This document shows positions 7,071 to 45,461 of a stretch of DNA of 64,000 nucleotides, in pieces (the first letter of the stretch is position 1; each line of letters starts with the position of its first letter). This stretch comes from Brachycybe producta. Lineage: Eukaryota > Arthropoda > Diplopoda > Playtdesmida > Andrognathidae. The stretch lies in contig JAUPFP010000002.1 in assembly GCA_036925085.1 (NCBI GenBank), forward strand, positions 9,884,321-9,948,320. The letters run 5' to 3'. The translations under genes were made by a program, and so were the position numbers. Under the pieces are notes generated by a model. That model ran no database searches and was not told the origin of the DNA. It saw only the letters and a program-made list of their open reading frames with translations.

Positions 7071-7324
7071 CGTGCAGAAAACGTAAAAGAAAACAGACAA
7101 TTGTTCTGTTTTCAAGTGCAAGAAACAGAACAGAATTTGTGATACTGTAGAGCTTTGCTCTACCTTTTCTGTTCTTTGCTGCTTTCTGTTATAAATGAAC
7201 CAATAGGATTGTAGCTTACATGACATCATCAAAACATTTTTGTAGACTCAAAGCAAACAACATTATTACAATGGTATGTTGCAACTACTGTTTGATCATC
7301 CATCTTGATTAGCCTGTGGAACAC

Positions 7325-7526
7325 ACAGGCAGTTAGAAATCGGGGAGAACTTCAGTTGGCTCCGCCCTTGTTATGACGACTGGCAACTTCTAATTGGTTT
7401 GTTGTGTGGTTCGATATTGAAAAGGGCGGAGCATGTGATGTCAGACTACATAACCAATTACAAGTTGCCAGTCGTCATAACAAGGGCGGAGCCAACTGAA
7501 GTTCTCCCCAATTTCTAACTGCCTGT
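7325..7526. mobile_element. Mutator-like MITE, copy 1, with perfect 9-base target duplication
   Basis: Ends ACAGGCAGTTAGAAAT and ATTTCTAACTGCCTGT are exact inverted repeats. The 9 bases GTGGAACAC occur immediately before (7316-7324) and after (7527-7535). The arms contain GCTCCGCCCTTGTTATGACG and its inverse. A 9-base duplication is characteristic of Mutator-like (MULE) transposition. No coding sequence. Confidence 0.85.
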
Positions 7527-7539
7527 GTGGAACACGTGT

Positions 7540-8660
7540 TGTTTGTGTTTCACAATAGATGGCGTGTCGCATTTCTGTTCTGCATGTGTGTTCAATCACA
7601 TTTCAAACAGAAAAAGTTGCAGTGATTTTCTTGTATGTTTTCTGTTGTATGTTTTTTTTTCTGCATGTGTCTCTCTGACTATCACACCCATCGTCGAAGA
7701 CGGGCTTTCGTTCTAGTAACTTTATAAACTCCATCATATCAGGACAATGACATAAGCCTATCTTTTTTGATGAATCCCTCTCTGACGTCACAAGCTTCAA
7801 GTTAGATTTTGTGAGCCACATTTTGAGCCTTTTATGTTGAACATGGAATAAATTTACCTAAACTTTTTTTTATTCTTCTTTTGCTTTTATATTTTATTTC
7901 CAATGATTCTAAATCGTTTTTTTTTTTCTCCCATCTTTTTTGAGAATGTGGCTAAGAATAAATAATAGCAAAGAGAATAGGAAAAAAAAACTGAGATTTT
8001 TTTGTGTGTGTTATGTGCTCGTTGTAATTTCACAGGTCGCAAGTTCTTTTTTTTTCCTACCTCTTCTTTTTTTTTAATCCCCTGAAGAAACGCCAAAGTG
8101 AATTTAGTAATGGGTTAAAAAGTAATGGGAGCCTCCAGGTCTGCCAAAATATAAAAAATATATAGACCCTCTTGAGGTGTGTGCTATAGATAGGCACAAA
8201 TAAATCTTTTGTTGTGATGAGGTAAAAAGAAGAATAGGAGAAGAAAAAAAACATACTCAAAAAAAAGGAAGGAAGGAAAAAGGGGGGAAAAATGCGTCGT
8301 CGTCGTCGTCTACCTCAGAAAAATAATCTTAAGAAACACAACTACTATCTTAAGACACCATTTTTTTCTTCTCTCTTTCGCTTTCCTTCAACTCTCACAA
8401 TTTCAGATTGAATAGACGTTTATCTATTGTAACGTTTCAACTAATAGTTCTCATAAATTTCGGCATTTTTTTAAATACATTTTAGACAACAAAAACAACA
8501 GAAAAGCTTTGAAAATATCTAATGTTAAAGAAATGATTAAAACGGATGTCTGAAGTTTACAACAAAACAAAATCACACTTTTTTTTCAATAAAAAAAATG
8601 CCAGACTGAAAACTTGTCAACTCAAGATTACTGGTTGGTATATGAAAATGGTGAGTTCAT
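7540..8660. other. AT-rich spacer
   Basis: Contains T-runs, a short (CGT)n-like patch at about 8295-8312 (CGTCGTCGTCGTC), and several short chance frames. Nothing else is supported. Confidence 0.5.
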
Positions 8661-8669
8661 TTTCTTATA

Positions 8670-8927
8670 CCTAGTTCACACTTGATATAATTTAAATGCA
8701 ATTTAAATAATGTGTTCTACAGAGCCCTGTGAAGGACAAACAAACAATATGTCGAATTCAAATTACTTAAATATAATTTATTGACAAAATATTGATTTAG
8801 TATTTCAATTTAAAATATTAATAATAAAGTCAATTTTTATTTGGTTCCTGGCCTTAACTGGATTCCGTATAATTCACCTAAACACATTTAATTTGAATTC
8901 AATTAACTCCGTGTGTTGTGTACAAGA
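8670..8927 (-). mobile_element. Family E MITE, copy 2 (inverted)
   Basis: Starts CCTAGTTCACACTTGAT after TA and ends GTGTGTTGTGTACAAGA before TA. It matches the complement of the copies at 4613 and 41934, including GAATTCGACATATTG and GATTCCGTATAATTCACC. Confidence 0.75.
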
Positions 8928-8929
8928 TA

Positions 8930-10020
8930 TTAGATAGAAAGAAAAAAAAGATTGCACGATGAACTGATTGGCTCACAATGTTCCAATGACCAATCAGAAA
9001 AATCCATTTTAAGAAAAGTATGGAAGACCATCAAGGTTAAATTGCATATTTGCTTTGCAAATTATGGGATATTTGTGTTTTAATGCATTTTAACAAGTAA
9101 ATAATAGAAAAAACTTACGTTTTTCGATACTCAAGAGCTTTTTATTTCTACTGAGACATTTTTGTTTTTGTTTTTTGAAACTACAGGAGTGTAAATTGTT
9201 TTATTTCATTGAAAAATGAGTTTAATTTAAGGTGTACCCTCCTCCTATAAGGGCGGATCCTGCATGGACAGGTCATTCGAGGATCCTCCGTCAAAATTTG
9301 ACAAGATTAACAGGTGGACTTCTCACTCAAAAAACATGGTTAGAGGCTAGAATTCTAGCATGCAGGATTTTTTGAGTAAAAAAATGCATTTTTCTGACTT
9401 GTCTTTTACTAATCATCTAACTTACAATTTATCGTAATTTAAGGAAAAAATGTACCAGTTATGATACGGCTCATCATAAGAATTCAGTTGATAAATTTTA
9501 TAATTTTAGGTGGAGCTAACTTTCATCAATATAAATAAATATATAGGTTTTTTTTTCAATTCAATCGATTTCACTGTTGATTCATTTCTATTCTATTGAA
9601 AACGGAAACCTCTAAATCTCATCTTCTCCATCTCCTCCTCCTCCCTTTCAAATAATCACTAAACGAAGATTAAAATCATTTCCTGCGCCAATAGCAAATT
9701 GTCTGATTTTTTTTTTTTTTTCACAAAAAAAAAAGGAAAATTCTGAAGGTTGTTCGATTTTCAAAACCTCTAAAGATCATTTAGCTGTTCAAATTAAAAG
9801 CTAAAGCTTTTTTTTTTGGAAAAAAAAAAAGAAGATATAAAGGTTTACAAAACAATATATATTGTTTTCAAAAAAAACATTCATCTCTCTCACCAAAAAG
9901 CATCATTGAAATTAAAGTATATATCTTCGATTTTCTTAACTTGTCTCCATTTTAACAACTCATTTAAGAGAAACTTCACATAAATTTTGTATTCAATGTG
10001 CATTTCATTTATTCTAATTT
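8930..10020. other. AT-rich spacer
   Basis: Contains a GGATCC-bearing imperfect repeat near 9255-9290 and one GAGGCTA motif (9343). No terminal repeats or gene signals could be defined. Confidence 0.45.
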
Positions 10021-10027
10021 CTTATTA

Positions 10028-10135
10028 AATCGAAAATAGGAGGGAGCCTCATTCGTTCTATTTTTTTTTTTTCTAAAACGAATTGTTTCAGAAAAAAAAA
10101 AATAGAACGAATGAGGCTCTCTCCTATTTTCGATT
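10028..10135. repeat. Near-perfect hairpin, about 45-base arms
   Basis: AATCGAAAATAGGAGGGAGC at the left is matched by the inverse at the right (GAGGCTCTCTCCTATTTTCG), with T-run and A-run in the arms and a loop of about 18 bases (CTAAAACGAATTGTTTCA). Few mismatches suggest a young or maintained inverted repeat. Confidence 0.8.
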
Positions 10136-10147
10136 AACTCGAATGAT

Positions 10148-10740
10148 GGCGATTGTTGGAGTTGGAGGCTAGCAGTGGTGTGAAAGTAGCACAACCAAAA
10201 AAATAATCAAATGAGCGGGTTAAATAGCTTGAAGTATGCATTTGGAACAGAATGGAGCACAAAAAAATTACAAATGGTAAAGAATGGATTTAAATTGAAA
10301 TAGAATAGAGTCCGGATTATCCGGACCAGCTTGGATATGGTCAATTTGGATGGGAAAAAACTAGCTCGAATAACACGGAACCTTTGATTTGATATTATTT
10401 TGAGATAAATTAGCAGTCCTTTTATCTTGTCACTCCTGTGACAATCTGGTTTAGGTACCCAACACCAAAATGGTGGGTGCAGACGAAATCCCAGTGGCAT
10501 CTGCTCCATTGCTTGGTAAGCAATGGAGAACCACCATGGTGTGTCCAGTCTAGGATTCTTCCTTGGCTACCTGTATGTAACCAAGGTGATATTTTGCACT
10601 CCATTTTGGTTCTGTAAATCCGCTCCAATTGCATATGCTTTTTGCTATTTACCCGCTCATCTGTTTATAATTGTTTCGCTACCACATGTCACTGTTAGCC
10701 TCCACCTCCAGCCCACGTAATCATCTCAGATGGGATACAG
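10148..10740. mobile_element. Large palindromic element with GTTGGAGGCTA / TAGCCTCCA ends
   Basis: The left side has GTTGGAGGCTAGCAGTGGTG, then AAATAGC, TATGCAT and GGAACAGAATGGAGC. The right side carries the inverse order (CTCCATTTTGGTTCTG, CGCTCCAATTGCATATGC, TTTGCTATTTACCCGCTCAT, TTAGCCTCCACCTCC). A nested TCCGGATTATCCGGA palindrome lies at about 10311. A related half lies at 14095-14230. Confidence 0.6.
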
Positions 10741-11516
10741 CCAAGTACGGTCTTTAGCTTCTATTATACAGTACTGTGTGGTTCTCCTGATAATCATGAC
10801 TATTGAGTGCACATTTTATAGTCTTGTTTTGGAAATTTCCAGGGGGAGAGGGTTACTAGTATTTTTTTTTATTTCTTCTTCTAGAATTGGATATTTTTAA
10901 GGGTCCTTTTTAGACTTAAGAAAACCTGCATGGTTTATTACATCTGCATAATGTGTTTTTGTTTTTGTAACCTTTTCTACATATCCTTAGATGATACACC
11001 ATGTCTCAAAAATGATATTTTTTTACATTCCCTTTGCACCTTTACGATTATTTATTTTTTGTGCTGTGTAGACACATATTACTTGTATGACGTCATTTGG
11101 CAATTGTCTGGATAAGAAGAAAAAACAACAAACTATTATAATAGCTTGTTATGGCTATGAATGCATCCCATGTTGCGTTTATTTATTCGGTAGGCTATGT
11201 AATATATTCTTTGTGTGTGTGTATATGTTTTAATTCTTTATAACACACACACCCTGTATAAATAGCAACCTTAATACAGGCAATTTGTTTCTTGGTTCCA
11301 GCAAAATAACCAAAACCCTTTTCTTTTTCCTTCATTTAACTCGATTTCAGGAAAGGGTACCTCAAATGCTTGTTGTCGTTTTAGAAACAAACTTTCAGTT
11401 GTATTATTTTAAAGTCAACGTGGAAATGGAAATTTAGCCATTGTACAGAATGCCTAAATGAGTTAAGATGTTGCTTCACCAAACAACTGATTTTTGAATT
11501 CTGATTAATTCTGTCC

Positions 11517-11765
11517 TTCAGAAACAAAATTAAGAGAAACTTAGTGTTTTGGAATGGTAGCATAATCAATTAAACGTATTTTCATGTTGATATCTTTCAA
11601 TATGAACTTTTTAAATGAAAAAATTAATCATCTGTTTAAAGTTGGGCCATTTTCAAACTCACATAAAAAGCTTATTTTAAAAAATATCAACATGAAAAAT
11701 AACCCTTAAGTGATTGAGATATACCCTTCTAGTTTCTAAAACACGTTCAAGGCATTTATACTTTT
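11517..11765. mobile_element. Family A element, partial
   Basis: Contains both arms around the centre: GTTGATATCTTTCAATATGA with its inverse AAAAATATCAACATGAAAA, and CCCTTCTAGTTTCTAAAACA near the right. The outer ends are eroded. Confidence 0.65.
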
Positions 11766-11884
11766 AAAACTATTTTAAATCAAGAAAACACGCAGAAAAA
11801 AACTTTAATAACTTAATTTAAATAATGTATTCTATTTATTTTCATTTTTTCTGCCAAATAAACAGAATGGAATTATTTAAGATG

Positions 11885-11963
11885 TTTTTTCATGAGTTTT
11901 GAAACTTCTGAAACTGCAGAATATGCAGTTTCAGAAGTTTCAAATCACAACACTCATGAAAAA
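11885..11963. repeat. Hairpin, GAAACTTCTGAAACTGCA arms
   Basis: TTTTGAAACTTCTGAAACTG is followed almost at once by its inverse CAGTTTCAGAAGTTTCAAA; CATGAG and CTCATG sit further out. A half-copy (TCAGAAGTTTCCAAATCAAC) occurs near 43545. Confidence 0.75.
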
Positions 11964-11974
11964 TTGTGTTTTAT

Positions 11975-12185
11975 AAACTAGAACTAGCTGAAACATTTAA
12001 TAGCAATTTCATGTTTGATATCTTTCAAAATAAACATTTTGTAGACAAAAAAAAAACAATCTTGTCATTTTCAAACTCATTTAAAAATCTTAGTTTGAAA
12101 GATATCAACATTCAAATACGCTCTTAAGTGATTGAGCTACCCTTCTAGTTTCTTAACAAAATACTTTCCATGTTTCTCTTAATTT
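11975..12185. mobile_element. Family A element, partial
   Basis: TTGATATCTTTCAAAATAAA and TTGAAAGATATCAACATTC form the inner palindrome. The right arm CTACCCTTCTAGTTTCTTA and TTTCTCTTAATTTTG matches the family. The left outer arm is missing. Confidence 0.65.
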
Positions 12186-12882
12186 TGATCTATAGAGAGA
12201 GATCTAATAGAAAATTGGTGATTTTACACATTGTCTAGTAATTATGTGTACTAATTGATTTTCTCAAAACACACCTTTGACGAAATATAGCCTCTAAGTG
12301 TTTTTTTTTTCTTTCTAGTTTTTTATCAAGATTTTGCTTTTAATTATAAACGTTAAACTAAGAAGGGTAGAGAGAAGTATTAAAAGAAGAAGAGAAAGCC
12401 AAATAATAAAATGTTAAGTTCTTTATGCCCTTAAAGATTAACTTCCTACTCAAAAAAGGAAAGGATTTTTTTTAGATTTCTTCTTCTTTTAGGGCAATCA
12501 CTAGAGGATATTATTATTATTATTACATGTATTTTTATTGCTAGCATCTTCATTCATTCACTTTCCATTGCTTTGAATTGTTAGAAAAATAGGGAGAATG
12601 GAACGAAGGTTTTTCTTCTTATTCTTTTGGTATAAAGAGATGAAAAGTAATGAATGTTAGAAGAGACCCCCAAATAGACCTACTTTAGAACAATTTGTCT
12701 TTAGAAAAAAAAAATACATCCTCTTTTTTATTATCTATCAGTTTTCTTATTTCTTATCATATAATATCTTATTATATTTCTCTCTCTTTGTAATTTACTC
12801 CAGAGAGAATTTTTGACTAAGTTCTCACAGGTATCTTTTAAAACCTTCCCCCCCCCCCCTCTCATTTTTTTTAGGTATATAT

Positions 12883-13172
12883 GTTACTGTCAATCTGCGG
12901 AATCAGTCAATCTGCAGGTTACCTAGGGAATTCTGCAAAACAACCAACCTGCTAGTGAATCTGCAAAATTCAATGCATTTTAGATGTTGAATTTTGCAGA
13001 TTCACTAGCAAGTTGGTGGTTATGCAATCTGCAAATCCACCAAACTCCTAGTCAATCTGCAAAATTCAATGCATTTTAGGTGTTGAATTTTGCAAATTCA
13101 CTAGCAGATTGGTTGTTTTGCAGATTGCTTAGGCAATACGCAGATTGACTGATTCCGCAGATTGACAGTAAC
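12883..13172. mobile_element. Family B palindrome with GTTACTGTCAATCTGCGG ends, copy 1
   Basis: The left GTTACTGTCAATCTGCGGAA is exactly inverted at the right (TTCCGCAGATTGACAGTAAC). The interior is built almost wholly from AATCTGCAA/TTGCAGATT units and CACTAGCA motifs in both orientations. Flanks are TATATA on both sides. Confidence 0.8.
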
Positions 13173-13847
13173 CTATATATAAATATAATTCTGTTCGTTA
13201 TTGTCTTTTATGTTTAATTAATGCAGTTTTTATTGTCTTTTTTGGTCTAAGATCTGGTCTATTGTTTGATGTGTTGTTGTTTTTTTTCGTCTTCTTTTGA
13301 ATAAGAAAAAAAACCATCATCATAATATCATAATAATAATCATAAGCGTCTATTCTTTATATGAAACTCAATTATTTAATGGTTTGTTTTTAGGTTTTGA
13401 TGTTTGAAAGTTAAAAAAAAGGGGGAGAGAAAGAAAATGGTGTTTAAAGGTGTATGTAATGTTGTTCATTTATGTATGTAAGTACTAAGTAGGCCCTACT
13501 TTTCATTAAAACATGATAAAAGGTAATGTTAAGACTGTAATATAAGCAAATAGATTTTCCCCCCTTTTTTCTCTCCCTGAAGAATATCATGTATTACACA
13601 CACATACATAGTTTACTTTTAATGTCTTAAAGTATTTATGCCCATTGTAATAGCGTGTCCTTATATAAAATTCCTAAAGGGGTCATGTGGACTAACATCA
13701 ACAATCAATTCTAAAAGGTGTTTTTCTGTTTGTCTGTTTACAAGCAAACAACCAACTACCACATTTGGAAAATGTTCTTTAAGCTTGTTGAAGATGCACT
13801 TCATTTCTAGTTTATTTTGGACGTTTTCGTTAATGGGCTTTCATTGC

Positions 13848-13849
<2 letters not shown>

Positions 13850-13894
<45 letters not shown>

Positions 13895-13918
13895 ATTCTC
13901 TCTCTCTCTCTCTCTTTT
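13850..13918. repeat. (CT)n microsatellite
   Basis: Two CT tracts separated by GCCATT. Pyrimidines are on the plus strand. Confidence 0.9.
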
Positions 13919-14094
13919 CCCCTCTTAGTACAACAGTTTTTAATTAGTTTAGGTCCTAAATCCAAACCTGGTTCATTTGAAACCATTATAATAATTAGAA
14001 TTTTAAATCATTAGGTTTTATGCTGTGTTTATAGTTGGTATTTCCACAAGGACCGATTCGTATTGGTGTATTCCAGCTGGAACGATTCTAACTG

Positions 14095-14440
14095 GGACTA
14101 CAGCAAGGGTTGGAGATAGAGGCTAACAACTTAAATAGCATAAATCATATGCATTTGTAGCGGAATAAAGCGCAAATAAATAGGATTTCCAAATGGTAAG
14201 GAATGGATTTAAATTTGAAATAGTTTATTTTAAAACACAAATTTTAGTAGGCCTACTTTTGGGGTTAAATTCGTTCCACTTACTATTTCAGTTGCAGCAG
14301 AAGACATTGCAATTGTTATTGGGTTTATATATCTTTGGGTTTTGACAATGCATTTCGCATGCTGCAATTAGACTTTTTTCCCTCTGCCATAGGTCTTCTT
14401 GGCTGCTTGCAGAGTAATTTTTGAAATTGTCATATGTTGT
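14095..14440. mobile_element. Half copy of the 10.1 kb palindrome plus family G repeat
   Basis: GGTTGGAGATAGAGGCTAAC and AAATGGTAAGGAATGGATTT match the left half of the element at 10148. It continues into a segment (14285-14440: ACAATGCATTTCGCATG, CTTGGCTGCTTGCAGA) that recurs at 34275-34400. Confidence 0.5.
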
Positions 14441-14539
14441 GCAATTTGAATTTAAGTCTAGGAGGACGTCATTGTGAAATGTGGACTATAAACGCGGCAG
14501 TTGTTGTTCTACTCTCATCACAAGTAATTTTTTAGAAGA

Positions 14540-15040
14540 AATTCAAAGTTTATTAGAAACTAGAAGAGTAAAGAAATCAAATAGAAGTAATGTAATGAAA
14601 ATATTTTTGTTTCTCCAAATAAATGTTATATTCTAGTTTGTAACATCAAATTTAATGAAAAAACATTAAATCTTGTCTTTGAAAAATTCAATGTTTTATT
14701 ATAAACTAGAATATAAAAATAAGAGTGACTTAAAATTAATCTATCTTAATTTATCTTTCAAAATAAATGTTTTATGGTTTAAGGCAAAAAAGAATCATGT
14801 TTTTTCAACCAATTAGGCTGCTTAGAGGCTAGATCTCTTTTATTGCGTGGACTTAGAATTAACTTCAGATTTCACCTAGAGTTAAGCCTCTAACCAGTCT
14901 TCTTTGATTGCAAAAAGCATAATTATTTTTTTGCCTTTAAACAATGTAACATTCATTTTTGAAAGATAAAATTATGAAATTAGTTTCAAGTCATTCTTAT
15001 TTCTATTCTAGTTTATAATAAAACACTGAGGTTGTTTTTC
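14540..15040. repeat. Long diverged inverted repeat
   Basis: TTATTATAAACTAGAATA, AAATAAGAGTGACTT and TTTATCTTTCAAAATAAATG on the left are mirrored on the right by TTCATTTTTGAAAGATAAA, AAGTCATTCTTATTT and TTCTAGTTTATAATAAAACA. Near the centre, AGAGGCTAG is mirrored by TAAGCCTCT. Confidence 0.65.
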
Positions 15041-15671
15041 CCATTCTAGTTAAGATGAAATTTACTATTTTTCTAATGCCGCAATAAATAAAATAATTCA
15101 AGAAATTTCATTTTGATTCATTTTTAGCATTTGTTAACTTTCTAGTTTTTTGTCATTACTACAACTGTTATGCCATCTAGTGAATTTTTATGTAAGCTAC
15201 ATTTTGATATTATTTTTTGATCTTATTATGGGTTATATTCGAATGGCCATTAAATTCAGTTTTTTTTTTAAAAAAAACGTGTTTCATGGCAACAAACGAC
15301 TTTGAACAGAAATGAATTTATATTTTTCTAGTTTTTTATGTCCTGTAGAAATATTTTTGTTTCAATAACTATGCATAATGATGTTTATGCAAATCCTTAA
15401 TAGAGAGTGAGAGAGAACCCAGTCTGGATGTGTTTTTTTTTTCCTTTCTTCAATTCCATCCTTTTTTTTTTTCATTCTTCCTCATCATTTCAGTTTTTCA
15501 AAAAAATAACAATCTCCAAAATTAGCCAACAAATATATATTTTTTTTCATCTTCTTTTTCTGTATTTACTGATGCAGAATCCTCCATAAGTTCCAGTACA
15601 TTTAATTTACTCGGTCTTGCGTTGATAATGGTAACCCAAATTATCTCCGTATTTAGCATCGTCGTTTTTAC

Positions 15672-15708
<37 letters not shown>
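15672..15708. repeat. (TA)n microsatellite
   Basis: Uninterrupted TA run, followed by CACATATTG. Confidence 0.9.
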
Positions 15709-15710
<2 letters not shown>

Positions 15711-15904
15711 ATATTGAAAAGAGTTGACACATGTGTGTGTGGGTCCTTTTTCCTTTTACTTTCTATTCAAAATTTCCATCAATAGAATTCATTCTATTTT
15801 ATATACTTTATATAAAAAGCACATTTTTTAAAAAAGTTTTATTGTAATAATTTAGACAGCTGTTGACAGAAAATACCTTTTTTAAATCATTTTTAATGTT
15901 GTTT

Positions 15905-16265
15905 TTTACTCTTCTAGTTTTGAAAATACTTCAGAAGCAACATTAAGAAGATTCGGAAAGTGTTTTTAAAACTAGAAAAGCAAATGAATTACTTAAGATG
16001 GGGTTGAAGTGTAAACGCCCTTCGAGGTCTGTTAGTTTTTGCTCTTCTAGTTTCTAAAATACTTCAGAAGCAACATTAAGAAGAAATACAAAGTGTTTTG
16101 AAAACTAGAAAAGCAAATGAATTACTTAAGATGGTTTTGTGTAAAAGCTCTTCGAGCTCTGCTAGTTTTTACTCTTCTAGTTTCTAGAATACTTCAGAAG
16201 CAACATTAAGAAGAAACTGAAAGTGTTTTTAAAACTAGAAAAGTAAATCAAGAAGCAACTCAAGA
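15905..16265. repeat. Three tandem units of about 130 bases, family A derived
   Basis: CTCTTCTAGTTT recurs at about 15909, 16042 and 16172. Each is followed by ATACTTCAGAAGCAACATTA, AAACTAGAAAAGCAAATGAA and, in the first two units, TACTTAAGATGG and CTTCGAG. The pieces are family A arm sequences, so the array grew from a family A fragment. Confidence 0.75.
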
Positions 16266-16269
16266 AGCT

Positions 16270-17255
16270 TGCTAAGTATGAGGCGCCTTTAATGTCAAAA
16301 TTTCAGTAATTGATCAAAAATTGAATTACTCCTGAAAAAATTTGTCTGAAAATATTGCGTTGACATTAAAAAAAAAACATCTCACCTTCTGGATTCGCTT
16401 CAAAAGCGCTAACGAAGTGAAAGCAAGCATTTGCGTGGGTGTAAACGATTGTGTTGCACTTTCAAGCACTTTCTTTTCATATTTGTGGCTCAAAAGGTCA
16501 TTCAGCTTGACCACCCCCTTTTTTTTATAGGCCTTTAAGGCATCGTTGTCCGTCCATATATCTGTATCAAGTTGATATCGGTGTAAACTGAATAATAATA
16601 TTACAATTGATGCTTTTCTTTGCGTTTTCTTGTTGCCATTGGTATGAATTTTATATAGAAACTATACAGAAGGGAGAACACATAACAATGGGTACATTGA
16701 CATTGATATAAAAAAAATAGTGATGGGCAATCTTATGAGATTTATTTTATTGAAATATTTCATGAAATTTATGAAATATATCAACAAACTTCTTAAATAC
16801 AATTTAAAATAATTTCTGTCACTACTTCTAGCTTTAAAATTTGAGGAGAAAATTTGACTGGAATTTAAGTTGCATTTTCTGAAAAGCTATTTTTTCTACT
16901 ACACACACACTATATATGCATAATGACAGATGTGTGTGACGTGTACAAAGTGGAAGATGCAACCCAATTGTGTGAATCTCTTTTCTTTATGATTAATGGA
17001 TGGGGGAGATTCTTTAACAGGTTCGAGCGCAAATTTAGTACTTCCTTGATTTCCTCATCGATTTGCGTATTTTTCTATGTAAAAAAATATACAGTAGCAG
17101 CTGCTACTGCTACTGTTAAAACATTTGTACAAGCTGAGAAACGATCGTACTTGGTTAGTGGTTGTCTTTAAAAAGTAAGCAGAAAGTACGGCATCTTTTT
17201 TTGTTTTTATCATTATACTAAGAGTGGTGCTGGTAAAACATCCGAGTTGTCTTAT
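16270..17255. other. Spacer, no supported gene
   Basis: Opposing frames at 16326-16530 and an 82-codon frame at 16923-17171 have no recognisable domain. CAGTAGCAGCTGCTACTGCTACTG at about 17093 is a short palindromic CAG/CTG patch. Confidence 0.4.
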
Positions 17256-17686: not shown

Positions 17687-17689
17687 TTT

Positions 17690-18040: not shown

Positions 18041-18044
18041 TTAA

Positions 18045-18378: not shown

Positions 18379-18389
18379 CATTTTTTATA

Positions 18390-19015: not shown

Positions 19016-19021
19016 GATCAT

Positions 19022-19839: not shown

Positions 19840-19840
<1 letters not shown>

Positions 19841-19922
<82 letters not shown>
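19841..19922. repeat. (CT)n microsatellite, about 80 bases
   Basis: Nearly perfect CT tract with pyrimidines on the plus strand. The 72-codon frame over it is a repeat translation. Confidence 0.95.
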
Positions 19923-19924
<2 letters not shown>

Positions 19925-20388: not shown

Positions 20389-20390
<2 letters not shown>

Positions 20391-20442
<52 letters not shown>

Positions 20443-20443
20443 A
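20391..20443. repeat. (TA)n microsatellite
   Basis: TA run ending TATGTATATA. Confidence 0.9.
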
Positions 20444-20584
20444 GGCCAACGAAAACCTCATATGATTTAAGAGGTCATTGGTGCAAAAATGACGTCTACA
20501 CATATCTGATCTTTTTCACACTTGAAGGTCACTATATTTAATATAATTTTCTCAAGAAAACAAGTATGCAAATTGCTGTGTTCC

Positions 20585-20862
20585 TTTCCGGTCGAAATTA
20601 TTTCGGTCGACAAGCCTCAGGGATTGGATTTGAGGCTAACAGTGACGTCAATAAAAAGTAATAGGGAGCGGTGAGGAGCAAAATAGTTAGGTTCGGTTCG
20701 GTTTGGTTTGATTAGGATAGGTTAGGGAGAAAGGGTTATATTTTTTTTGGTAGCTCTTTCATTCACAACTCCCTATTACTTTTTATTGACGTCACTGTTA
20801 GCCTCCAAACCAATCCATGAGGCTTGTTGACCGAAATAATTTCGACCCAAAAGGATACCGCC
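20585..20862. mobile_element. Palindromic element with CRE octamer in both arms
   Basis: CGGTCGAAATTATTTCGGTC, AAGCCTC, GAGGCTAACAGTGACGTCAA and AAAGTAATAGGGAG on the left are inverted on the right (CTCCCTATTACTTTTT, TTGACGTCACTGTTAGCCTC, GACCGAAATAATTTCGACC). The arms are about 85 bases and the loop is TTGGTTTGATTAGG-like. Each arm holds TGACGTCA. Confidence 0.75.
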
Positions 20863-20969
20863 ATGCGAATTATTAGACGAATGGTTCCTTGAGAAGAGTA
20901 GGTGGAGTTAGTATAGTTTCCGGGGACGGGGTAAACGTCTATATGACGATACTGACTAATCAGTATCAT

Positions 20970-21160
20970 CATAGAAAGTGTGGAAATTAAAGAATTTTCA
21001 GGCCGATACAGAGTCCACTCTGTATTGGTATGAATTTTTCTCATTTTTCAACATTTTTATGGCTATTTTGTCTGTATAATATGGCAGACGTTTTCACCAT
21101 AAAAACCGCGCAAATTAAAAAATTTTCTGGCCGATACAGAGTCCATTCTATATCGTCATG
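20970..21160. repeat. Two direct repeats around GGCCGATACAGAGTCCA
   Basis: GGCCGATACAGAGTCCACTC at about 21001 and GGCCGATACAGAGTCCATTC at about 21130, each preceded by AAATTAAAGAATTTTC-like sequence. Each unit contains an ATACAGAGT/ACTCTGTAT inverted motif. Confidence 0.6.
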
Positions 21161-21254
21161 AAAATTCTTTACATTGCCGCACTTTCTAGTTCGTCCCTAG
21201 TTTCCGGACATGTTTTTTCCCCCAAATGCGCCCTGTATAACAATGATTCATATA

Positions 21255-21585
21255 CAGTGGAAACAGCTTGAAAGGACCAAAATATTTTTTTCGTGTTAAC
21301 CAATCTTCGTGTTAAAAAGAATTTGAACAACATATTGTATAATATATTTATGGTAAAACAAATAATGCGATAATTTAACTCGGTCTTAAAACATTTTCGT
21401 GTTTAAAAAAGGATTTTAAATAGATTTTTATTCATGAGACTAAAACATTTCTTTGTGTAATCCGAATATTTTCGTGTTATTCGTTTCGTCTTAAACGAAT
21501 TAAAATATATGAAAACCCTACTGAAGTACGGAACTGAACATATATATTTCGTGTTATTTTTTTCGTGTTAAAAGGTTTTCATTTT
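21255..21585. mobile_element. TACAGTGGAAAC element with many internal TTCGTGTTAA motifs
   Basis: TA precedes CAGTGGAAACAGCTTG. The right end AAAAGGTTTTCATTTTA is a mutated inverse (a better right end, AACGGTTTTCACTG then TA, occurs at 41126-41142). TTCGTGTTAA or close variants recur about eight times inside. TA target and CAGTG ends suggest a pogo/mariner relative. Confidence 0.55.
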
Positions 21586-21589
21586 ATTG

Positions 21590-22128
21590 TTAAAATAGAA
21601 TTTTGTAGTTAAAAAAAGGGAAGTTTTTCATTTGTCACTTGTGTGTCAGTAAATATAGAGTGTGGTCTTGCTTTTGGTCTTTTTTTTGTGTGTTGGTCTT
21701 CTACTGACCAATGGCTAGATGTGTCAATAGTGACATAAGACTAAACAGGTGACAAATTGAGCGAGTCACAATGTTAAAATGTTCTGTTCCCTCCTATACC
21801 CACATGTGTGACACAAAAAAAACCCCTTAAAAACCCTCCCAACTCCTTCTCACAAAAAAAGTCGTGGCTTTTGGAAGCAACCAATCAGGTCAAAAGCTGA
21901 GAATCCTCTAACCACAGACTATTTTTTTTTCTGCAGAAAAAGACAGAAAACCTGTGGGTGAATGAGGTGGAAGAGGAGGAAATGAAAAAGTCTATTACTA
22001 AGCTCTATGAAGAAGATAGTTTCTTAAAAGACAAATACACAAGTTGTAAATCAATCAAGATATTTTGGAAAGGGGGACCAAATTTCGAGTGTTTTTAGAG
22101 ACATCTATTGGTCAATAAAGAAACCATT
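21590..22128. other. Spacer
   Basis: No terminal repeats or gene signals recognised. Purine-rich patch near 21960-22000. Confidence 0.45.
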
Positions 22129-22130
22129 TA

Positions 22131-22613
22131 CAGTAGAATCTCGATTATCCGGAGTAAATTGAATCAGATGTACTGAAAGTCCAGATAATCCGGAAAATCG
22201 CTTTTTTTTACTTTAAGGGCTTTGGCACACAGGCCGTTTTTGAAACACTTTTCGACAATAAAAAGCTTGAAGGTCTGACACCGCAATGTATTTTCTATGA
22301 AAAGACGCCATCCTTGACAGACAGGCGCGGAGATTCAAGAGATTTAAGAGTTAAGGAAAGTGAGGTAATTTGAAAAAAGACGCCATTTTGCATCGATGAC
22401 AAAAAAGAAAACCATAAGAATGTTTCTTTTTCAAGTGTTGAGCTAAACAACAAACGACGTCCACACATCGTAAGCCTCAATCAAACAGATAAAGAACTAA
22501 ATCGTTTAAACGATGAACACATCGTAGAGTTTAAGGAAAGTTAGGTATGATAAAGGTCAGTCCAGATTATCCGGAAGTCCGGATTATCAAGAGTCAAGAT
22601 CTAATCGATATTC
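22131..22613. mobile_element. Tigger/pogo-like MITE, CAGTAGAATCTCGATTATCC end, with insert
   Basis: TA (22129-22130) precedes CAGTAGAATCTCGATTATCC. The right end is degenerate (CCGGATTATC..ATCGATATTCTAC). A second inner pair AGATAATCCGG / CCGGATTATC supports a terminal inverted repeat. Family F-like sequence (22218-22320) lies inside and is probably a later insertion. This terminus type is well known in pogo/Tigger elements. No transposase frame. Confidence 0.6.
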
Positions 22614-23082
22614 TACAATACTTGAATAGAACATAAACCTTTACCTATTTCCACCAATCACACTTAATAATTATTGTTCGTTCTAGACTGTAAACTAGTT
22701 AATTTAATCAAAATTGATTGAAACTGTACTAGTTTCTCTTTTCCTTTATGCGGTTGTTTACCCATTTATAAATCAATATCATTAATTAAAACAGGGTTTT
22801 TGTCTTTCTTTATTTCTTTCTTTCTTTCAAGAGATAAAAGTAGCAACAATAACAAGAAGAAGAGCGAAAAACTTTCAGAAAAGTTTAATTAACAAATGTA
22901 ATTTAAAGAAAACATTTTGCAATTAATCTGGAACTTTTCACTTTTCCCTGTCTTTAATTAGAAATCTATTCACGATTTTAAGCTTAAACTTTCAAGACAA
23001 ATTCTCTTTCTCTCTCTCTCTCACACCTGCTGTAATTTATATTGTTCATTTTCCTAAATTAGTAAAAACTTAAGAGGACTCC

Positions 23083-23392
23083 ATAGAAAAATACTTGGAA
23101 GGTAGATGGCGCTTGCAACCTCCTTAGATGACAAACTACACTCGCCACCAAATAAGTTGAAATAGAATGCAGCCTTTTTTAGCTCTAAAAGCGTCCAAAA
23201 TAACCTTAATTATCAGAGCAACGTGACAAACTTAACCCCAGAACACAATATAAGTGAAGAGAGAGCACGTGTAGAAATATGCAATGACGCAATTAAAAGT
23301 TTGCCACGTGGAAAAAAAAGGGAAGAAGGTGTGAAGTGTCACGTACATTTTTTATTGGAGGAGGGCAAGTGGCTCCATCTAATGCTACACGC
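23083..23392 (+). mobile_element. Family D element, copy 2
   Basis: Begins CATAGAAAAATACTTGGAAG, with GTAGATGGCGCTTGCAACC, GAGAGAGCACGTGTAGAAAT and GTTTGCCACGTGGAAAAA; ends near TCTAATGCTACACG. Confidence 0.75.
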
Positions 23393-24199
23393 ACAATAAA
23401 TAGGATTTTTATGTTTTAATATTATTTTCAGAGGGTTTAAGTTTTCTTTTCTTGAATTTTCTCCTAAATTTTGTCCTAAATTTTGAAATCGTTGCCAAGA
23501 AAGCAAAAAAAAAGTCAACATTTGTGTTTTGTATAAGAAATTCACGTTTGAATGTCTATTGTTATAGTCAGTACTGTAAGTAGTCCATTTTTATCATGTA
23601 CTAGTCACACCCTAGTTGCTTTTTGGCAACACCATTGGCTAAAGTGTGTCTATCTCTCTCTCTCTCTTTTGCTGGCCAAAATGTTTTCATTTTTACGTCT
23701 TTTTCTTGTATTGCCAGTTACTTCCACACTCTTATCGAATCAAGCACTTCCTAATCTTTCATTATGGGGGTCACAAAACGACACTGAGATGACTTTTTAG
23801 ACCAGTTTTTCTTTTGCTTTTTTTCTCTCCCTACGCGATCTCTCTATTTTTAACACTCCCATCTTTCTCTTACCATTTATTTGACTTTAACTCGGATCTT
23901 TTCGTCGCTTTTTTTCTTCTTCTTCTTCTTCAGAGTTTCTAACGGACACAACGAAAGAATGACACCGACCTTAATATAGATTTTTAGGCGACTTTTCTAT
24001 GTATATTCATACTTACATATATCTATATACACTTATATATAGCTGACAAACTGAATAAATTCAATTTCATTTTTATATATAATAATCAGGTTAAAGAGCA
24101 AAAAGACTGGACTAGTTGGCCAAACAATAACTGAACAAAATATGAGACTGAACCTTGGTTAGAGAGATAAACATCATAATATAATTTATGGTGTCATTT

Positions 24200-24827
24200 T
24201 GGAACGTTCAGTTTCTAAGCACTTTTAAAGCAGCTCAAACAGCTTGAAACTGAATGATTGCACTCCAGATCAATGGGCATTCATGAAGGTACGTTCAGTT
24301 TCTATAAGCATATTTGAAGAAGCTCAAACAGCTTGAAACTCAATGAATGCATTCTTGGTCATTCATATGTACCGTTCAGTTTCTAAGCACTTTTAAAGCA
24401 GCTCAAACAGCTTGAAACTGAATGATTGCACTCCAGATCAATGGGCATTCATGAAGGTACGTTCAGTTTCTATAAGCATATTTGAAGAAGCTCAAACAGC
24501 TTGAAACTCAATGAATGCATTCTTGGTCATTCATATGTACCGTTCAGTTTCTAAGCACTTTTAAAGCAGCTCAAACAGCTTGAAACTGAATGAATGCATC
24601 CTTGGTCTTTCATATGTACCGTTCAGTTTCTAAGCATATTTCAGGAAGCTCAAATAGCTTGTTGTGTATGAGACACATTTCTTGTTTTATTACTATAGGC
24701 CAAATTGTTTTATATACATGTAAATGATTCAAATCTGATCAATTAATAGTAGTTTCACATTATCGGCGCCTCATACTCTTGGTGTTTTTTTTTTCTTTTC
24801 AAAAAGCGCTATGAAACTGAACGCACC
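24200..24827. mobile_element. Terminal-repeat element with 168-base higher-order tandem repeat
   Basis: CGTTCAGTTTCTAAGC starts units at 24206, 24374 and 24542, exactly 168 bases apart. Each unit has two halves of about 87 and 81 bases. Each half is itself a small palindrome (GTTCAGTTTCT..GCTTGAAACTGAAT). The whole array is bounded by GGAACGTTCAGTTTC and GAAACTGAACGCACC. The 168-base units look almost identical, implying recent expansion. Confidence 0.8.
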
Positions 24828-24981
24828 TTTTGTTATTCATGTATACGAGCGTAAATTTGTGTTTATCTATTTTTCTGTGCTTTATCTTTGTCTTTTGTGT
24901 TGTGTGGTATATATATTTCTTTACATTTGCGTTGTGAATTTGTATTGCCATGTTTGAATAGGTTATTTTCACAATGTATTA

Positions 24982-25495
24982 CAGGCAGTCCCCAGATTTA
25001 CAAACGAGTTCCGTTCTCAAGAATCTTCTTTTAAGTCGAATTTGTATGTAAAAGTCTGGCTGCGATTATGCAACTAAGTATGGTGCCAACGGCAATACAG
25101 AATAGTGACGTCACTTTCAGCCAAAGTCGTGTATCTCAATGACGTCACTATTCCGTATTGCCATTTGCGCCACACTTAGTCGTATAATTGCAGCCAGACC
25201 GTTACATAAAAATTCGACTTAACCTGGGACTTATCTTGGAACCCGTTGTAACCCATGCAAAAAGCTAGTGGTGTAGATGGCGCTGATGTTAATTACCCCT
25301 GTAGTGCCCACAGGCAAGTGTGCCCAGCACTAAAATTTCGTTTATCCCGCTCTTTTATGAGCACCATCAATTTCTAATTGATTTGTTACTTGGTCTGATG
25401 TCATAAAAGGGCGGGGCAAACGAAACCTTGTGTGCCTGTGTAGTGTCCCAGTATGTTTCTGTGGAATGATATAAGTCAGACTCGGGAACTGTCTG
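24982..25495. mobile_element. Tigger-like element flanked by TA, with nested MITE
   Basis: TA then CAGGCAGTCCCCAGATTTAC at the left; GAACTGTCTG then TA (25496-25497) at the right. The CAGGCAGTCCCC terminus is typical of Tigger/pogo-group elements. An internal palindrome contains TGACGTCA twice (25100-25150). The ACAGGCAA MITE at 25310-25439 interrupts it. Confidence 0.7.
25310..25439. mobile_element. ACAGGCAA-type MITE nested in a Tigger-like element
   Basis: Ends ACAGGCAAGTGTGCC and GTGTGCCTGT. Flanks GTAGTGCCC and GTAGTGTCC match at 8 of 9 positions, so it too made a 9-base duplication. Its core (CCGCCC..TTTATGA, TTCTAATTG, GGTCTGATGTCATAAAAG) is a shorter relative of the 7325-type MITE. 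Confidence 0.75.
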
Positions 25496-25499
25496 TATT

Positions 25500-26710
25500 T
25501 ATGCAGTTTCTAGACGTCTCTCTGAAGTAGGTCTTTTGAGCTACTTACAGAGAGTAATTATTCAAATTGAAAAATTCTCTTGATATTTATTTATGTGTAA
25601 CCTTTTTTTTCTGTTTGTTTCTTAAGTTGTTTTGAAGAAACTTCACTTGAATTAATTTTTAAAAAATGCAGAAAAACAAATTGCTTTTTCTTAAAAGAAA
25701 ACCACCCCAAAAATACCTAGTTTTTTTTTTTTCTAAACGTTTTGTTGAAGTTCCAATTTCAATGTTTAGTATATATTTTTCTGGGTACTTTCAATTCACA
25801 ATTTAAAAGCTAATTTGAATGTGCTAAGTTTCACATCAAATGCTTCATTTAAATAAATCCTTTCTTTTATCTGTTTTCCGTTTTTTTTTTCATTTCAAAT
25901 CGAAACAAAAAAAAGTTTTATTTTCTACGATTACAATAAATATACTGAAATAAAAAGAAATACTCTCTCAATACTAACAAGAAAATAATGTTTCTTTCCA
26001 CAGTTGGAAAACAGGAGGAGGCGGAGGAGGTTTTTTTTGTGTTCATCCTTGTTTTCTGTGAGCTTAAAGTAAGATGGTCAACCATAGATATATAAGGAGC
26101 CACATATGGCCCCCAATGCCACATTTCTAATATCATGTGGCTGAAGCTTCCAAAAACAAAAGTTGGTCCACCATCAACCACACCCATAGCTTTTATTCCC
26201 ATATATTGTGAAATACAATATCTACTCGATTGTATATTCTAAACCTTTAGAAGAGAACATCACTTTTTTCACTTTAAAACCGATTTCATATAAAAAAAAG
26301 TAGAAAAAGACAGGATTTGCGACAAAGGATTTTGAGATTATGGAATGAGAAATGATAGATCTAAGTCTTAAAACTTTTTCAGAGTTGCCAAAAAGTGGAA
26401 TACAGAAAAAGATGACCTGAAAGGTGGATTTTTCGATGCTATTTTAAAATATCAAACTAAAATCTTGAAAGAAAAACCCCCCAAAATGACCATTGTCCTT
26501 CGAGACTAGGATGACAATTCAATAGATTTTATTTCCCTTGAGTGCTTATTGTCGTTTTTTAGTCCTGAGAACTCAGTTCTCATGGCATTAGTCTGTCTGC
26601 GTGTTATTGTCTGTTACCACTAGAACACACCAGGTGTACTATCAATTTTTATGTAAATTATTATTATTTTAGAACGTGTGTGGTGAAAAAAGTGCAATTT
26701 GAAAACAGAA
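25500..26710. other. AT-rich spacer
   Basis: A 94-codon minus-strand frame (25918-26202) has no recognised domain. Nothing else could be defined. Confidence 0.45.
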
Positions 26711-26714
26711 AAAA

Positions 26715-26870
26715 GTTACCCCTTGTAAGGACGCAATCATTGCTAACACTGAGCTACCCCTTGAAAACAAGCAATCACTGCTAACACTGAGCTACCCCTT
26801 GAAAATATGCAATCACTGATAACACTAAGCTACGCCTTGAAAGGACGCAATCACTCACTGCTACGTTGAC
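26715..26870. repeat. 38-base tandem repeat, four units
   Basis: GAGCTACCCCTTGAAAA-type units start near 26715, 26753, 26791 and 26829, each containing GCAATCACTGCTAACACT. CAATCACTG is shared with the 4.05 kb hairpin arms. Confidence 0.85.
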
Positions 26871-27397
26871 AGTCCAGCGACCTTCGACTTCATTTTGTCA
26901 CCAAAAAGTCTTTCAAAAGTCGCCTGTTTGTTCCGACCTTAATAGTTTCTAACGGCATTTGAAGTCCATGTCAAAATTTGCTTATGTTAAGCGATTTTTC
27001 CTTCTATCTTTTTGCAAGTGGTCAATAATTACCATGAGGTGTTCTACTTTTGTATAATTTTACTGAGTAGTTATTATGTGTTGCAATAACAATGGCTTTC
27101 GTTTGACTATCACCAACATGGTATATTATAATATGAAGGTACTTTTTTAATGAAGCTATTTTGTGTGTTTTTTTTAAATCCTGAAGTGAAAGAAACACAA
27201 AAGGCTGTGAAAGTCACTTATTGCATCTCATTAAGTTTGGCTAAAGTCTTGTTATTAAAATGAAGCCACCTTTTGAGGTCAGCCATTGAGGTGAAATGGA
27301 GAAGAATTGAAATGCAAATTATGTATAATTTTGTACAATATATTATATATTAAACGACTTCATTTCTTGAATTACCGCTTTCTAAAATCCAACCCTC

Positions 27398-28075
27398 ATT
27401 TCTCTCTCCTTCAGTCTTTCTCTCTCCTTCAGTCTCTTTCTCTCTCTCCTTCAGTCTCTTTCTCTCTCTCCTTCAGTCTCTTTCTCTCCTTTAGTCTCTC
27501 TTTCTCTCCTTTAGTCTCTCTTTCTCTCCTTTAGTCTCTCTTTCTCTCCTTTAGTCTCTCTTTCTCTCCTTTAGTCTCTTTCTCTCCTTTAGTCTCTCTT
27601 TCTCTCCTTTAGTCTCTCTTTCTCTCCTTCAGTCCCTCTCTCTCCTTCAATCCCTCTCTCTCTCCTTCAGTCCCTCTTTCTCCTTCAATCCCTCTCTCCT
27701 TCAGTCCCTCTCTCTTTCTCCTTCAATCCCTCTCTCCTTCAGTCCCTCTCTCTTTCTCCTTCAGTCCCTCTCTCTCCTTCAGTCCCTCTCTCTCCTTCAG
27801 TCCCTCTCTCTCTCTCTCTCCTTCAGTCCCTCTCTCTCTCTCTCCTTCAGTCCCTCTCTCTCTCTCCTTCAGTCCATCTCTCTCTCTCTCCTTCAGTCCA
27901 TCTCTCTCTCTCTCCTGTATTCTATCTTTTAGTCTTTCTATCTCCTTCAGTCTCTCTCTCGCTACCTAAACTATCTCTCTCTTTTTCAGTCTCTCTTTCG
28001 GTTTTTTTCTCTACCTATCTCTCTCTCTCTCTCTCCCTATAACTCTTCCTCATAGTCTCTCTTTCTCACTTGAGT
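27398..28075. repeat. Pyrimidine minisatellite, CTCTCCTTCAGTC units
   Basis: About 650 bases of CTCTCTTTCTCTCCTTTAGT and CCTTCAGTCCCTCTCT units, 17-25 bases each, with progressive variant types from left to right. Purely pyrimidine-rich on the plus strand. Confidence 0.9.
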
Positions 28076-28079
28076 TCTA

Positions 28080-28344
28080 AATTACAATTTATTTCACGAA
28101 GATTTGAAGCTTAATTTCACAATTTGGAAGAAGAAAAAAAGAAAACATCCTTGTGGCCAGTTAGTTAGTTTGATGTGAATTCTGAACCTTACTTTTGATG
28201 GTTGGGGGTTTACTATCTTTTAGAAGTTTTTAACCCATCAATGGAGAGAGGGGGAGTCTCTCTCTTTTGTATGGTCATCATAAAATGGGGGTTGGATTTT
28301 TTTCTTCTTCTTCTTGTATGTGTGAAGACAAGAAGCTTTTTGAA

Positions 28345-28378
<34 letters not shown>

Positions 28379-29590
28379 GGTTCCTTTTTTTTCTTCTTCT
28401 TTCATTTTAGTTAGATTGACATATCATTTCTCTCTAAAGTGATGAATAGAGCTGTCATTTTGACTAGTGCCCAGTGTCCATCATGTTGTTTCTATCCTCG
28501 TTATCTGAAAATTCGTTGCCCATTATGGATGATCATCGTTCGTTGGTGGGCTCTCTTAAGATTTCTTAGAATCCTTCTTCTTCTTACCCCTAAAGTGTGT
28601 AATATGTTCATTTGTCCGCTAACAGAGTAAGAGAGAGAGAGAGAAGAATGTGATGAAAAACCATGACGTCATCGTACTTTATAAGAAGTTTCATATATAT
28701 TTCTTATGTATCACCCTCCTCCCTCCCCAAAAAGATGAATTTTTCATGTGAACGATGTAGTTTTATGGCTTTCGAATAGCCAATTCTTTTAAGACTTTCA
28801 TAAAGATTACTTTGTATATAGAAGAAGAGAAGGGGTGGGTAGTTAGATACAATATACTGTCAAAGTGTAAAATTCAGTCATTTTGTAAAAATCATTAGTC
28901 ATTTTGTAAAAATCGTTAGTCATTTTGTAAAAATCATTAGTCACTTTACGAAATCACTAATTCCAGGTGAAGATTTCCAATTCACAGAAAACACAGAAAG
29001 AAGTCATTTTCGTAAAGTTACTAGCTAATTTTCGAAAACTATCATTTCAGTATCACTGAATTAAAATTGTAGACATTGTTCAAAATATACGATTGAAATG
29101 TAAAATTTTAATCTGGAAATTGTCATAAGAAAAGCATTATGTAGATTTTCGGCCACGGTCACACACACGCACGCAGAAAACACCAACTGTAAATAGGAAT
29201 TTATCTAAATTAAATATTTCTGTTGTATTTATTTTGCATTTTTTTTTCTGCTAAATAAATAGAATAGAATTATTTCAATTGGATGAATTCTATTTTCAGT
29301 TGGCATTTTCTTGCTTTGTAGGCCTTTAGAAGAAAATCTGCACATTCTTAAGCTTTATGACAAACTTCCAGAATGAATTTTAAACTTGAATCGTGCATTT
29401 TGAACATTATGCCTACAATTATATTCAATGCAACTGAATTGGTGGTTTGAGAAAATGAGTTAGTCGCTTTGCGGAAAACGATATCAGTCGGTGTTTTTGC
29501 TTGTGGAGATCTTAGCGTTAGAAAAGAATCACACATGCTGAAAAACGAAATAAAAAAAGATGTGTTCCAATTTGGAATTTTCTTTTTTCA
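28080..29590. other. Spacer with short patches
   Basis: (CT)n at 28346-28372, (GA)n at 28630-28645, and three tandem ATTTTGTAAAAATCRTTAGTC units at about 28880-28945. Frames of 60-70 codons here show no recognisable domain. Confidence 0.5.
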
Positions 29591-29603
29591 GCTTGTGTTT
29601 GTG

Positions 29604-29800
29604 ACAGGCAGTTAGAAATAGGTGAAAACTTCAGTTGGCTCCGCCATTGTTATGACGACCGGCAACTTCTAATTGGCTGGTTATGCAGTCTGACGTTGAA
29701 AAGGGAGGAGCATGTGACGTCAGACTTCATAACCAGCCAAGTCAGTCGTCATAATAAGGGCGGAGCCAACTGAAGTTTTCACCTATTTCTAACTACTTGT
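29604..29800. mobile_element. Mutator-like MITE, copy 2, with perfect 9-base target duplication
   Basis: Left end ACAGGCAGTTAGAAAT and slightly mutated right end ATTTCTAACTACTTGT. GTGTTTGTG flanks both sides (29595-29603 and 29801-29809). Body matches the copies at 7325 and 30543. Confidence 0.85.
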
Positions 29801-30307
29801 GTGTTTGTGTTATTCTTTTCTTAATATGGATTTACTGGTTTCGTTAACTAACTGGTGATTTTACAGAATGACTGTATTTTTCACTTTGACGGCTCTAAAC
29901 TATAGGTATTTTGTTATCATGTCTATAAAAAACGAAAAGATGAACGAAAATAAAAGCCACAAAACAACAGTCGATTGCAATAAATTGTAAGTCTGTATAA
30001 TCGTATCATCGCGTCAAGATATATTGGAAGCCTCAAGCTTCAATGTGATTTTTTTTTTGTCTTTATTCTCTTTCTCTCTTTCTATCTATTGTTATATATC
30101 TTTGTAAAAACAAACAACTCTTATTATAGTTATACTACAAGTTGTCAAAATCAAAATTACATTTTAAAAAAATTGTGTTTATTACACGCCTCATGAGATA
30201 AAAACTCATAAATGAAAAATGACCGGAAGTTTTTTTTTTTTCGGTGGAAGGGCTTGGACCTTGTGTATTTTAATCTATAAAGTTTGTCAAAAGCCTTAAA
30301 AATCAGG

Positions 30308-30376
30308 TGTGGCCCGCGAGCCGAATGAAACAGGCCTTGTGTTGTCCTCGTTTAGAAACGAGTTTCAGATCACTGG
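30308..30376. mobile_element. Fragment of a hAT-like element end
   Basis: GTGTGGCCCGCGAGCCG is followed by GAGTTTCAGATCACTGG. This matches the general layout of truncated hAT termini (CAGTGATCTGAAACTC with a GGCCCGCGAGCC motif). Only one end is present. Confidence 0.4.
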
Positions 30377-30542
30377 TTTAGAATTTCAGAATAAAGTTTC
30401 CATATTTTTTTTTGTTTATTACCTCCAGAAATTTCTTTTCAAAATATTCTCAAAAAAAAATTAAAAATGAAGTGACTTTTCCTGAGTCATTAAACGACGC
30501 CATTTTAAATTTCCAAAAACGAAAGTCTCCCCCCTATTTTTG

Positions 30543-30745
30543 ACAGGCAGTTAGAAATCGGGGAGAACTTCAGTTGGCTCCGCCCTTGTTATGACGACCA
30601 GCAACTTCTAATTGGTTTGTTGTGTGGTTCGATGTTGAAAAGGGCGGAGCATGTGACGTGAGACTACATAACCAACCAATTACAAGTTGCCGGTCATAAC
30701 AAGGGCGGCGACAACTGAAGTTCTCCCAGATTTCTAACTGCCTGT
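30543..30745. mobile_element. Mutator-like MITE, copy 3, with perfect 9-base target duplication
   Basis: Ends ACAGGCAGTTAGAAAT and ATTTCTAACTGCCTGT. CTATTTTTG flanks both sides (30534-30542 and 30746-30754). It lies less than 800 bases from copy 2. Confidence 0.85.
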
Positions 30746-30759
30746 CTATTTTTGTGGCA

Positions 30760-45460: not shown

Positions 45461-45461
45461 A

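Follow-up and report, generated by a model that had tools for sequence, protein, structure and literature searches.

Which transposase moves a family of very short inverted-repeat elements, three copies of which lie between perfect 9-bp direct repeats, is the question raised by a 64,000-bp stretch of the genome of the millipede Brachycybe producta (GenBank assembly GCA_036925085.1, contig JAUPFP010000002.1, positions 9,884,321 to 9,948,320 of the forward strand; the whole stretch is termed the window). The three elements are non-autonomous foldback miniature inverted-repeat transposable elements (MITEs), an identification that is certain, with terminal inverted repeats (TIRs) of about 80–90 bp on either side of a short centre; they are called type 1 here. 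The Mutator-like element (MULE) superfamily is the best supported for them and likely the right one, their source being unproven. Quite probably they are moved in trans by a MULE transposase, most likely one of the genome's zinc-finger (C2H2-type) clade.

Copy 1 (7325..7526, 202 bp, palindromic) lies between exact copies of GTGGAACAC at 7316..7324 and 7527..7535, copy 2 (29604..29800, 197 bp) between exact copies of GTGTTTGTG at 29595..29603 and 29801..29809, and copy 3 (30543..30745, 203 bp) between exact copies of CTATTTTTG at 30534..30542 and 30746..30754; the duplications are read on the plus strand, and the elements themselves were assigned no strand. The boundaries and perfect 9-bp repeats reported in the earlier note were exact for all three. 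Its description of common ends held for five of the six ends, at which the 16-mer ACAGGCAGTTAGAAAT is exact, and failed for the right end of copy 2 (ACAAGTAGTTAGAAAT), which differs from the 16-mer by two mismatches. With up to 3 mismatches allowed, the 16-mer was matched 6 times in the window, against a mean of 0.90 and a maximum of 4 in 100 shuffles. A single strand of copy 1 was predicted to fold into a near-complete hairpin (−91.2 kcal/mol, against a shuffle mean of −22.3; z −23).

Copy number, duplication lengths and divergence

The 16-mer end was searched in the 295.3-Mb assembly of 442 contigs (contigs and fetched loci are given, where needed, by labels beginning with C and L). With at most one mismatch it was found 6,647 times in the forward and 6,759 times in the reverse direction (13,406 in all), against 1 + 1 matches for the reversed-pattern control. 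A family of this sort, with thousands of small mobile copies, is a commonplace type of genomic parasite. A sample was made up of the first 51 of 100 places listed, all on contig C1 and fetched as 40 regions, together with the three window copies. It yielded 43 copies, of which 35 were two-ended, 7 had no acceptable second end and 1 had only a poor pair. The 35 two-ended copies measured 187–216 bp and were, as is characteristic of MITEs, short, inverted at their ends, non-coding and high in copy number; their TIR arms were long, aligning over 54–91 bp at 77–99% identity (outer 90 bp compared).

Duplications of 9 bp were exact in 16 of these copies and matched at 8/9 bases in 5; those of 8 bp were exact in 4 and matched at 7/8 in 2; those of 10 bp were exact in 1 and matched at 9/10 in 1; and none was found in 6 of the 35. 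A duplication of 8–10 bp, exact or with one mismatch, was thus present in 29/35 copies, as in MITEs generally, and with the window copies left out exact 9-bp duplications were seen in 13/32. Eight or more of the nine flank bases matched in 21/35 copies in place, compared with 2/980 comparisons in which the flanks were shifted by 10–23 bases. In the 21 nine-base duplications G was favoured at the first and C at the last position (19/42 positions when both strands are counted together; p about 1e-5 by a binomial test with 16.5% per base, made post hoc on a small sample). The earlier note had proposed that duplication lengths be tabulated and had named lengths other than 9 bp as counter-evidence. 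Lengths of 8 and 10 bp do occur, yet they lie within the 8–11 bp given for MULEs (PMC6446971). A mode of 9 bp accompanied by 8 and 10 fits MULEs.

Kimura two-parameter distances of the 35 copies to their majority consensus ranged from 0.015 to 0.139 (mean 0.073, median 0.066), values that subfamilies raise somewhat. Those of the window copies were 0.040, 0.041 and 0.116. Since the copy at 0.116 is flanked by a perfect duplication despite its divergence, perfection of a 9-bp repeat is no sign of recent insertion, and the fairly recent activity that had been read from such duplications is not borne out by copies lying about 7% from their consensus. When the end strings were compared with the openly licensed literature, a single paper was matched, by a 12-mer and under an unrelated title.

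MULE genes of the genome and their termini

The MULE domain (PF10551) was matched 21 times in the genome. By protein comparison, 10 of the 21 frames (719–814 aa) form a first clade and 7 (428–1,088 aa), with minisatellite flanks, a second; the remainder are 3 short, mutually alike frames and 1 divergent frame. Six proteins were scanned, five of the first clade and one of the second, and the MULE domain passed the cut-off in all six. Finger models of the C2H2 type matched four of the five first-clade proteins with E up to 0.001, passing the curated cut-off in two (L057 and L058), the finger of L055 being only a C..C..H..H pattern in the alignment; the PHD-finger match of L060 was below the cut-off. 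Of 13 aligned transposases, nine retain the D-D-E positions, and five of these (L054, L102, L055, L036 and L060) also the C of C-x2-H. Eight pairs were compared by simple counts; one was saturated, and dN/dS was 0.20–0.71 in the other seven. Queried at the protein level with the C89 transposase, the genome yielded at least 33 matches (60 of 108 candidates scored). Fourteen MULE-related loci were read at length; C98, C9 and C19 were among those left aside, as were fragments on C5 and at C1:11.6 Mb and the second clade's outer ends. At L060 (C5:5399500-5408500) two near-identical second-clade genes lie in a palindrome with 4-kb arms (99.75%) and minisatellite flanks, a Rehavkus-like arrangement, and divergent pairs were also seen, by position, on C2 and C38.

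A complete MULE element of 4,194 bp with an open 796-aa frame was delimited at C28 2720786-2724979. Its TIR reads ACTAGCGT(T/C)TGGAGGC..., with an ACTAGCG start unlike that of the MITE ends, and it is flanked by an exact 9-bp duplication, ATCTTCTTT. A twin on C13 shares 99.97% identity with it (3,012 bp compared) and has the duplication CCTTTTATC/CCTATTATC with one mismatch; judged from sequence, the pair is young. MULEs of the first clade therefore make 9-bp duplications in this genome. A mechanical search around seven MULE loci for inverted ends flanked by exact 8–10-bp duplications brought up nothing that convinced as an element, and the one-mismatch element on C13 escaped it.

The gene in L054/L102 (C89) has a MITE end immediately upstream, which was rejected as its TIR because it faces outward and is present in both copies; this end is read as an old insertion carried along by a local duplication. 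The right flank of L102 was likewise rejected as a right TIR, the same junction recurring elsewhere. Enrichment of MITEs near MULE genes is not claimed: 21 merged elements were counted in 93.5 kb, made up of 14 hand-chosen loci of which four had none, and the 64-kb window, a single and biased control, had 7.

MITEs with other bodies share the type 1 start or have a similar one, namely type 3 (ACAGGCAATTGTGCCCAGCA), type 4 (ACAGGCAAGTGTG...), type 5 (ACAGGCATCTGTAGAC) and type 6 (ACAGGCAAGTGGGCGC). Types 4 and 5 gave exact duplications, of 8 bp at L102 and of 9 bp at L105 respectively. The best link between such ends and MULEs is L104 on C15, where a 534-aa frame (L104:2408-4009), flanked by 115-bp inverted repeats (87%), matches the C89 transposase over residues 24-253 (57%) and 673-728 (43% identity). 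The right repeat is split by a type 4 MITE with the duplication AGCGCCCAC/GGCGCCCAC; beyond this nested MITE it ends, by eye, in TTGCCTGT, which is ACAGGCAAGTGGGCGC read inwards. Ends of the ACAGGCA type thus enclose a gene derived from the first MULE clade, and what holds for L104 may be extended, by inference, to the type 1 MITEs. The L104 repeat was found at no fewer than 43 places in the genome (40 of 152 candidates scored), including several pairs 300–500 bp apart, and the exact ACAGGCAAGTGGGCGC start at four of them, two of which are perhaps one place. Among 11 type 6 places fetched, L108 had an 8-bp duplication that was both exact and informative, and L111 an exact one of A only; one-mismatch duplications were seen at L113, L115, L116 and L117, the last two of which look like one place on two contigs, and the script used could slide the ends slightly.

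The L104 frame is one of four zinc-finger frames absent from the PF10551 matches, the others being of 602 aa on C80 (L118:1352-3157), 434 aa on C54 (L119:1197-2498) and 297 aa on C33 (L120:1019-1909). The C-terminal part of the transposase is matched in the C15 and C80 frames, and by eye in those of C54 and C33. It is conceivable, though improbable, that a clan of MITE families, unlike in their bodies but sharing an ACAGGCA-like terminus, is served by zinc-finger MULEs, that the same MULE lineage has given rise repeatedly to such frames without the catalytic core, and that their products bind MITE or MULE ends without cutting and act as putative repressors, much as truncated P-element repressors do. 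If true, this would explain why there are many MITEs yet no active source.

Coding source and alternative transposases

The assignment to the MULE superfamily made in the earlier note draws on the modal 9-bp duplication with 8 and 10 bp, the MULE-domain genes, a MULE element with an exact 9-bp duplication and a MULE-derived gene within TIRs of a MITE family with a ACAGGCAAGTGGGCGC end. The autonomous source thought possible there fared less well, as neither a coding element with ACAGGCAGTTAGAAAT ends nor any transposase gene inside them turned up in partial searches. That result weighs against a MULE origin, as do several features of the termini. The terminus in common, ACAGGCA, is of seven bases only, and the single complete MULE, that of C28, has other ends. 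A conserved G/C within the first three bases is reported for most arthropod MULE TIRs (PMC13359780), unlike the ACA start of the MITEs, although the C28 MULE itself starts ACT; TIRs longer than 100 bp are called typical (PMC5225508), and those of the MITEs are shorter than 100 bp. At L104 the left repeat starts with a deviating end, GCAGGCAACCC, no outer duplication was recognisable by eye, and the gene has no catalytic domain. Type 6 ends vary (ACAGGCA, ACAAGCA, ACAGGGA, AGAAGCA), the place with the best type 6 duplication, L108, having ACAAGCA and ACAGGGA and others AGAAGCA at one end, and no duplication was found at five of the 11 type 6 places fetched.

The mechanism favoured for the type 1 MITEs consists of steps that we infer from what is known of MULEs. 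A transposase of the zinc-finger clade, acting presumably on the ACAGGCA ends, would bind the long TIRs of a MITE in trans; cutting at the ACAGGC ends would release the MITE, and its ends would be joined to target DNA with a stagger of 9 bp, sometimes 8 or 10. The palindromic body of the MITEs may have arisen by internal deletion of a longer element.

Coding copies were sought with the 16-mer while excluding the inner bases of the MITE, each pattern passing only part of the truly different sequences, so that the search was non-exhaustive. The matches at 24 places (four read at length) and at a further 47 (matched strings only) were, by eye, mostly MITE ends with indels or rearrangements. ACAGGCA ends lying 0.4–9 kb apart with duplications were found in two cases in the window and the fetched loci of at least 3 kb: the L004 candidate is a nested MITE, and that of L015 a 743-bp copy into which AT-rich sequence is inserted, with AAAGGTCC as its exact duplication of 8 bp. 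L103 (C1:3083800-3090800) was also rejected, as half a MITE followed by 22-bp minisatellites, with no transposase among the frames inspected; its neighbour is presumably a protein-kinase-like exon. At L121 (C43:354400-354600) two 16-mer ends with 2 bases between them form a unit of 34 bp in all (83-116) within inverted flanks of about 24 bp and with no direct duplication, a palindromic rearrangement akin to that at 44308-44710 of the window, described below.

The outcome of these searches, with copies about 7% from their consensus, is also what would be seen if the family's own source were gone from the assembly and no present transposase recognised the MITEs. This is a serious contender, if a less probable one; it is compatible with a MULE origin and denies only a living source, and it is countered by the presence of MULE genes that keep the D-D-E and C-x2-H positions and by the partial nature of the source search. 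A Merlin-type transposase is an unlikely mover of the MITEs. Merlin elements make 8–9-bp duplications, so duplication length does not by itself exclude them, but the exact 10-bp case and the long TIRs fit MULEs better.

Slightly less likely still is service by the other MULE clade, the Rehavkus-like one (L047-L053 and L060), in which minisatellites form the flanks and the match to a PHD finger is weak. For Rehavkus itself 9-bp duplications are given in Table 1 of PMC6446971. Most copy pairs of this clade are 99.5–100% identical, suggesting recent spread, and L060 retains both the D-D-E and the C-x2-H positions; however, 9 kb of L060 contained no match to the 16-mer (up to 3 mismatches) or to the MITE library, the outer ends of the element lying beyond. 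A hAT or P-type transposase is very improbable, for these make mostly 8-bp duplications and, in spite of 4 exact and 2 near 8-bp cases among the 35 copies, the mode is 9 bp (16 exact and 5 near) rather than 8. A MULE of the zinc-finger clade is thus preferred as the transposase serving type 1.

Related elements and known systems

The window also contains four relatives whose left end is ACAGGCA, none assigned a strand. A degraded copy with the left end ACAGGCAAGTGTGCCC (25310..25425) has no duplication that could be found. Two type 3 copies (32613..32755 and 36172..36314) also have none, as was the case for the one type 3 copy checked in L056, and the three have flanking sequence in common; in the window these flanks are of the kind CCCGTCATAAATGACGGGAGC, and in L102 such a flank leads, by eye, into a Penelope-like element. 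The fourth, a type 4 copy (ACAGGCAAGTGTAGCC; 44412..44606), is the centre of a palindrome at 44308-44710 that reaches 104 bp into the flanks and has 161-bp arms (98%). With up to 2 mismatches allowed, the genome had two matches to its flank junction, each of them at this site; the structure resembles the product of a local inverted duplication more than an ordinary insertion. Long tandem repeats at 54838-56462 and 45451-45942 yield repetitive open frames on both strands.

What emerges is an abundant, probably MULE-type MITE family with sampled duplication lengths and an indicated transposase clade, of specialist interest for its missing coding source and for the open frames, derived from MULEs, that lack a catalytic core. 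The type 1 family is a known kind of element. Tm1, a Mutator/Foldback family of root-knot nematodes, likewise has MITE-like members, an inverted-repeat structure and a MULE transposase in an animal genome, with mostly 9-bp (8–10) duplications in 45/53 elements; it differs in its composite TIRs with short repeats, its other terminal motifs and its Phantom-type coding member, none with the same ends being known here (PMC3169594). Muta1, which is proven active in yeast, and other MULEs of Aedes resemble type 1 in their 8 or 9-bp duplications, long TIRs and hundreds of non-autonomous derivatives, but most of their TIRs exceed 100 bp and carry subterminal tandem repeats, whereas thousands of short foldback copies are found here (PMC5225508). 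The Spectre group combines a C2H2 zinc finger and a MULE transposase with TIRs of about 75 bp, its likeness to the present transposases being one of description, and differs in its 8-bp duplication (PMC6446971). Rehavkus has its counterpart in the second MULE clade of this genome, with the weak PHD-finger match and minisatellite flanks (PMC6446971), a clade for which no link to the type 1 MITEs was found in the 9 kb of L060 examined.

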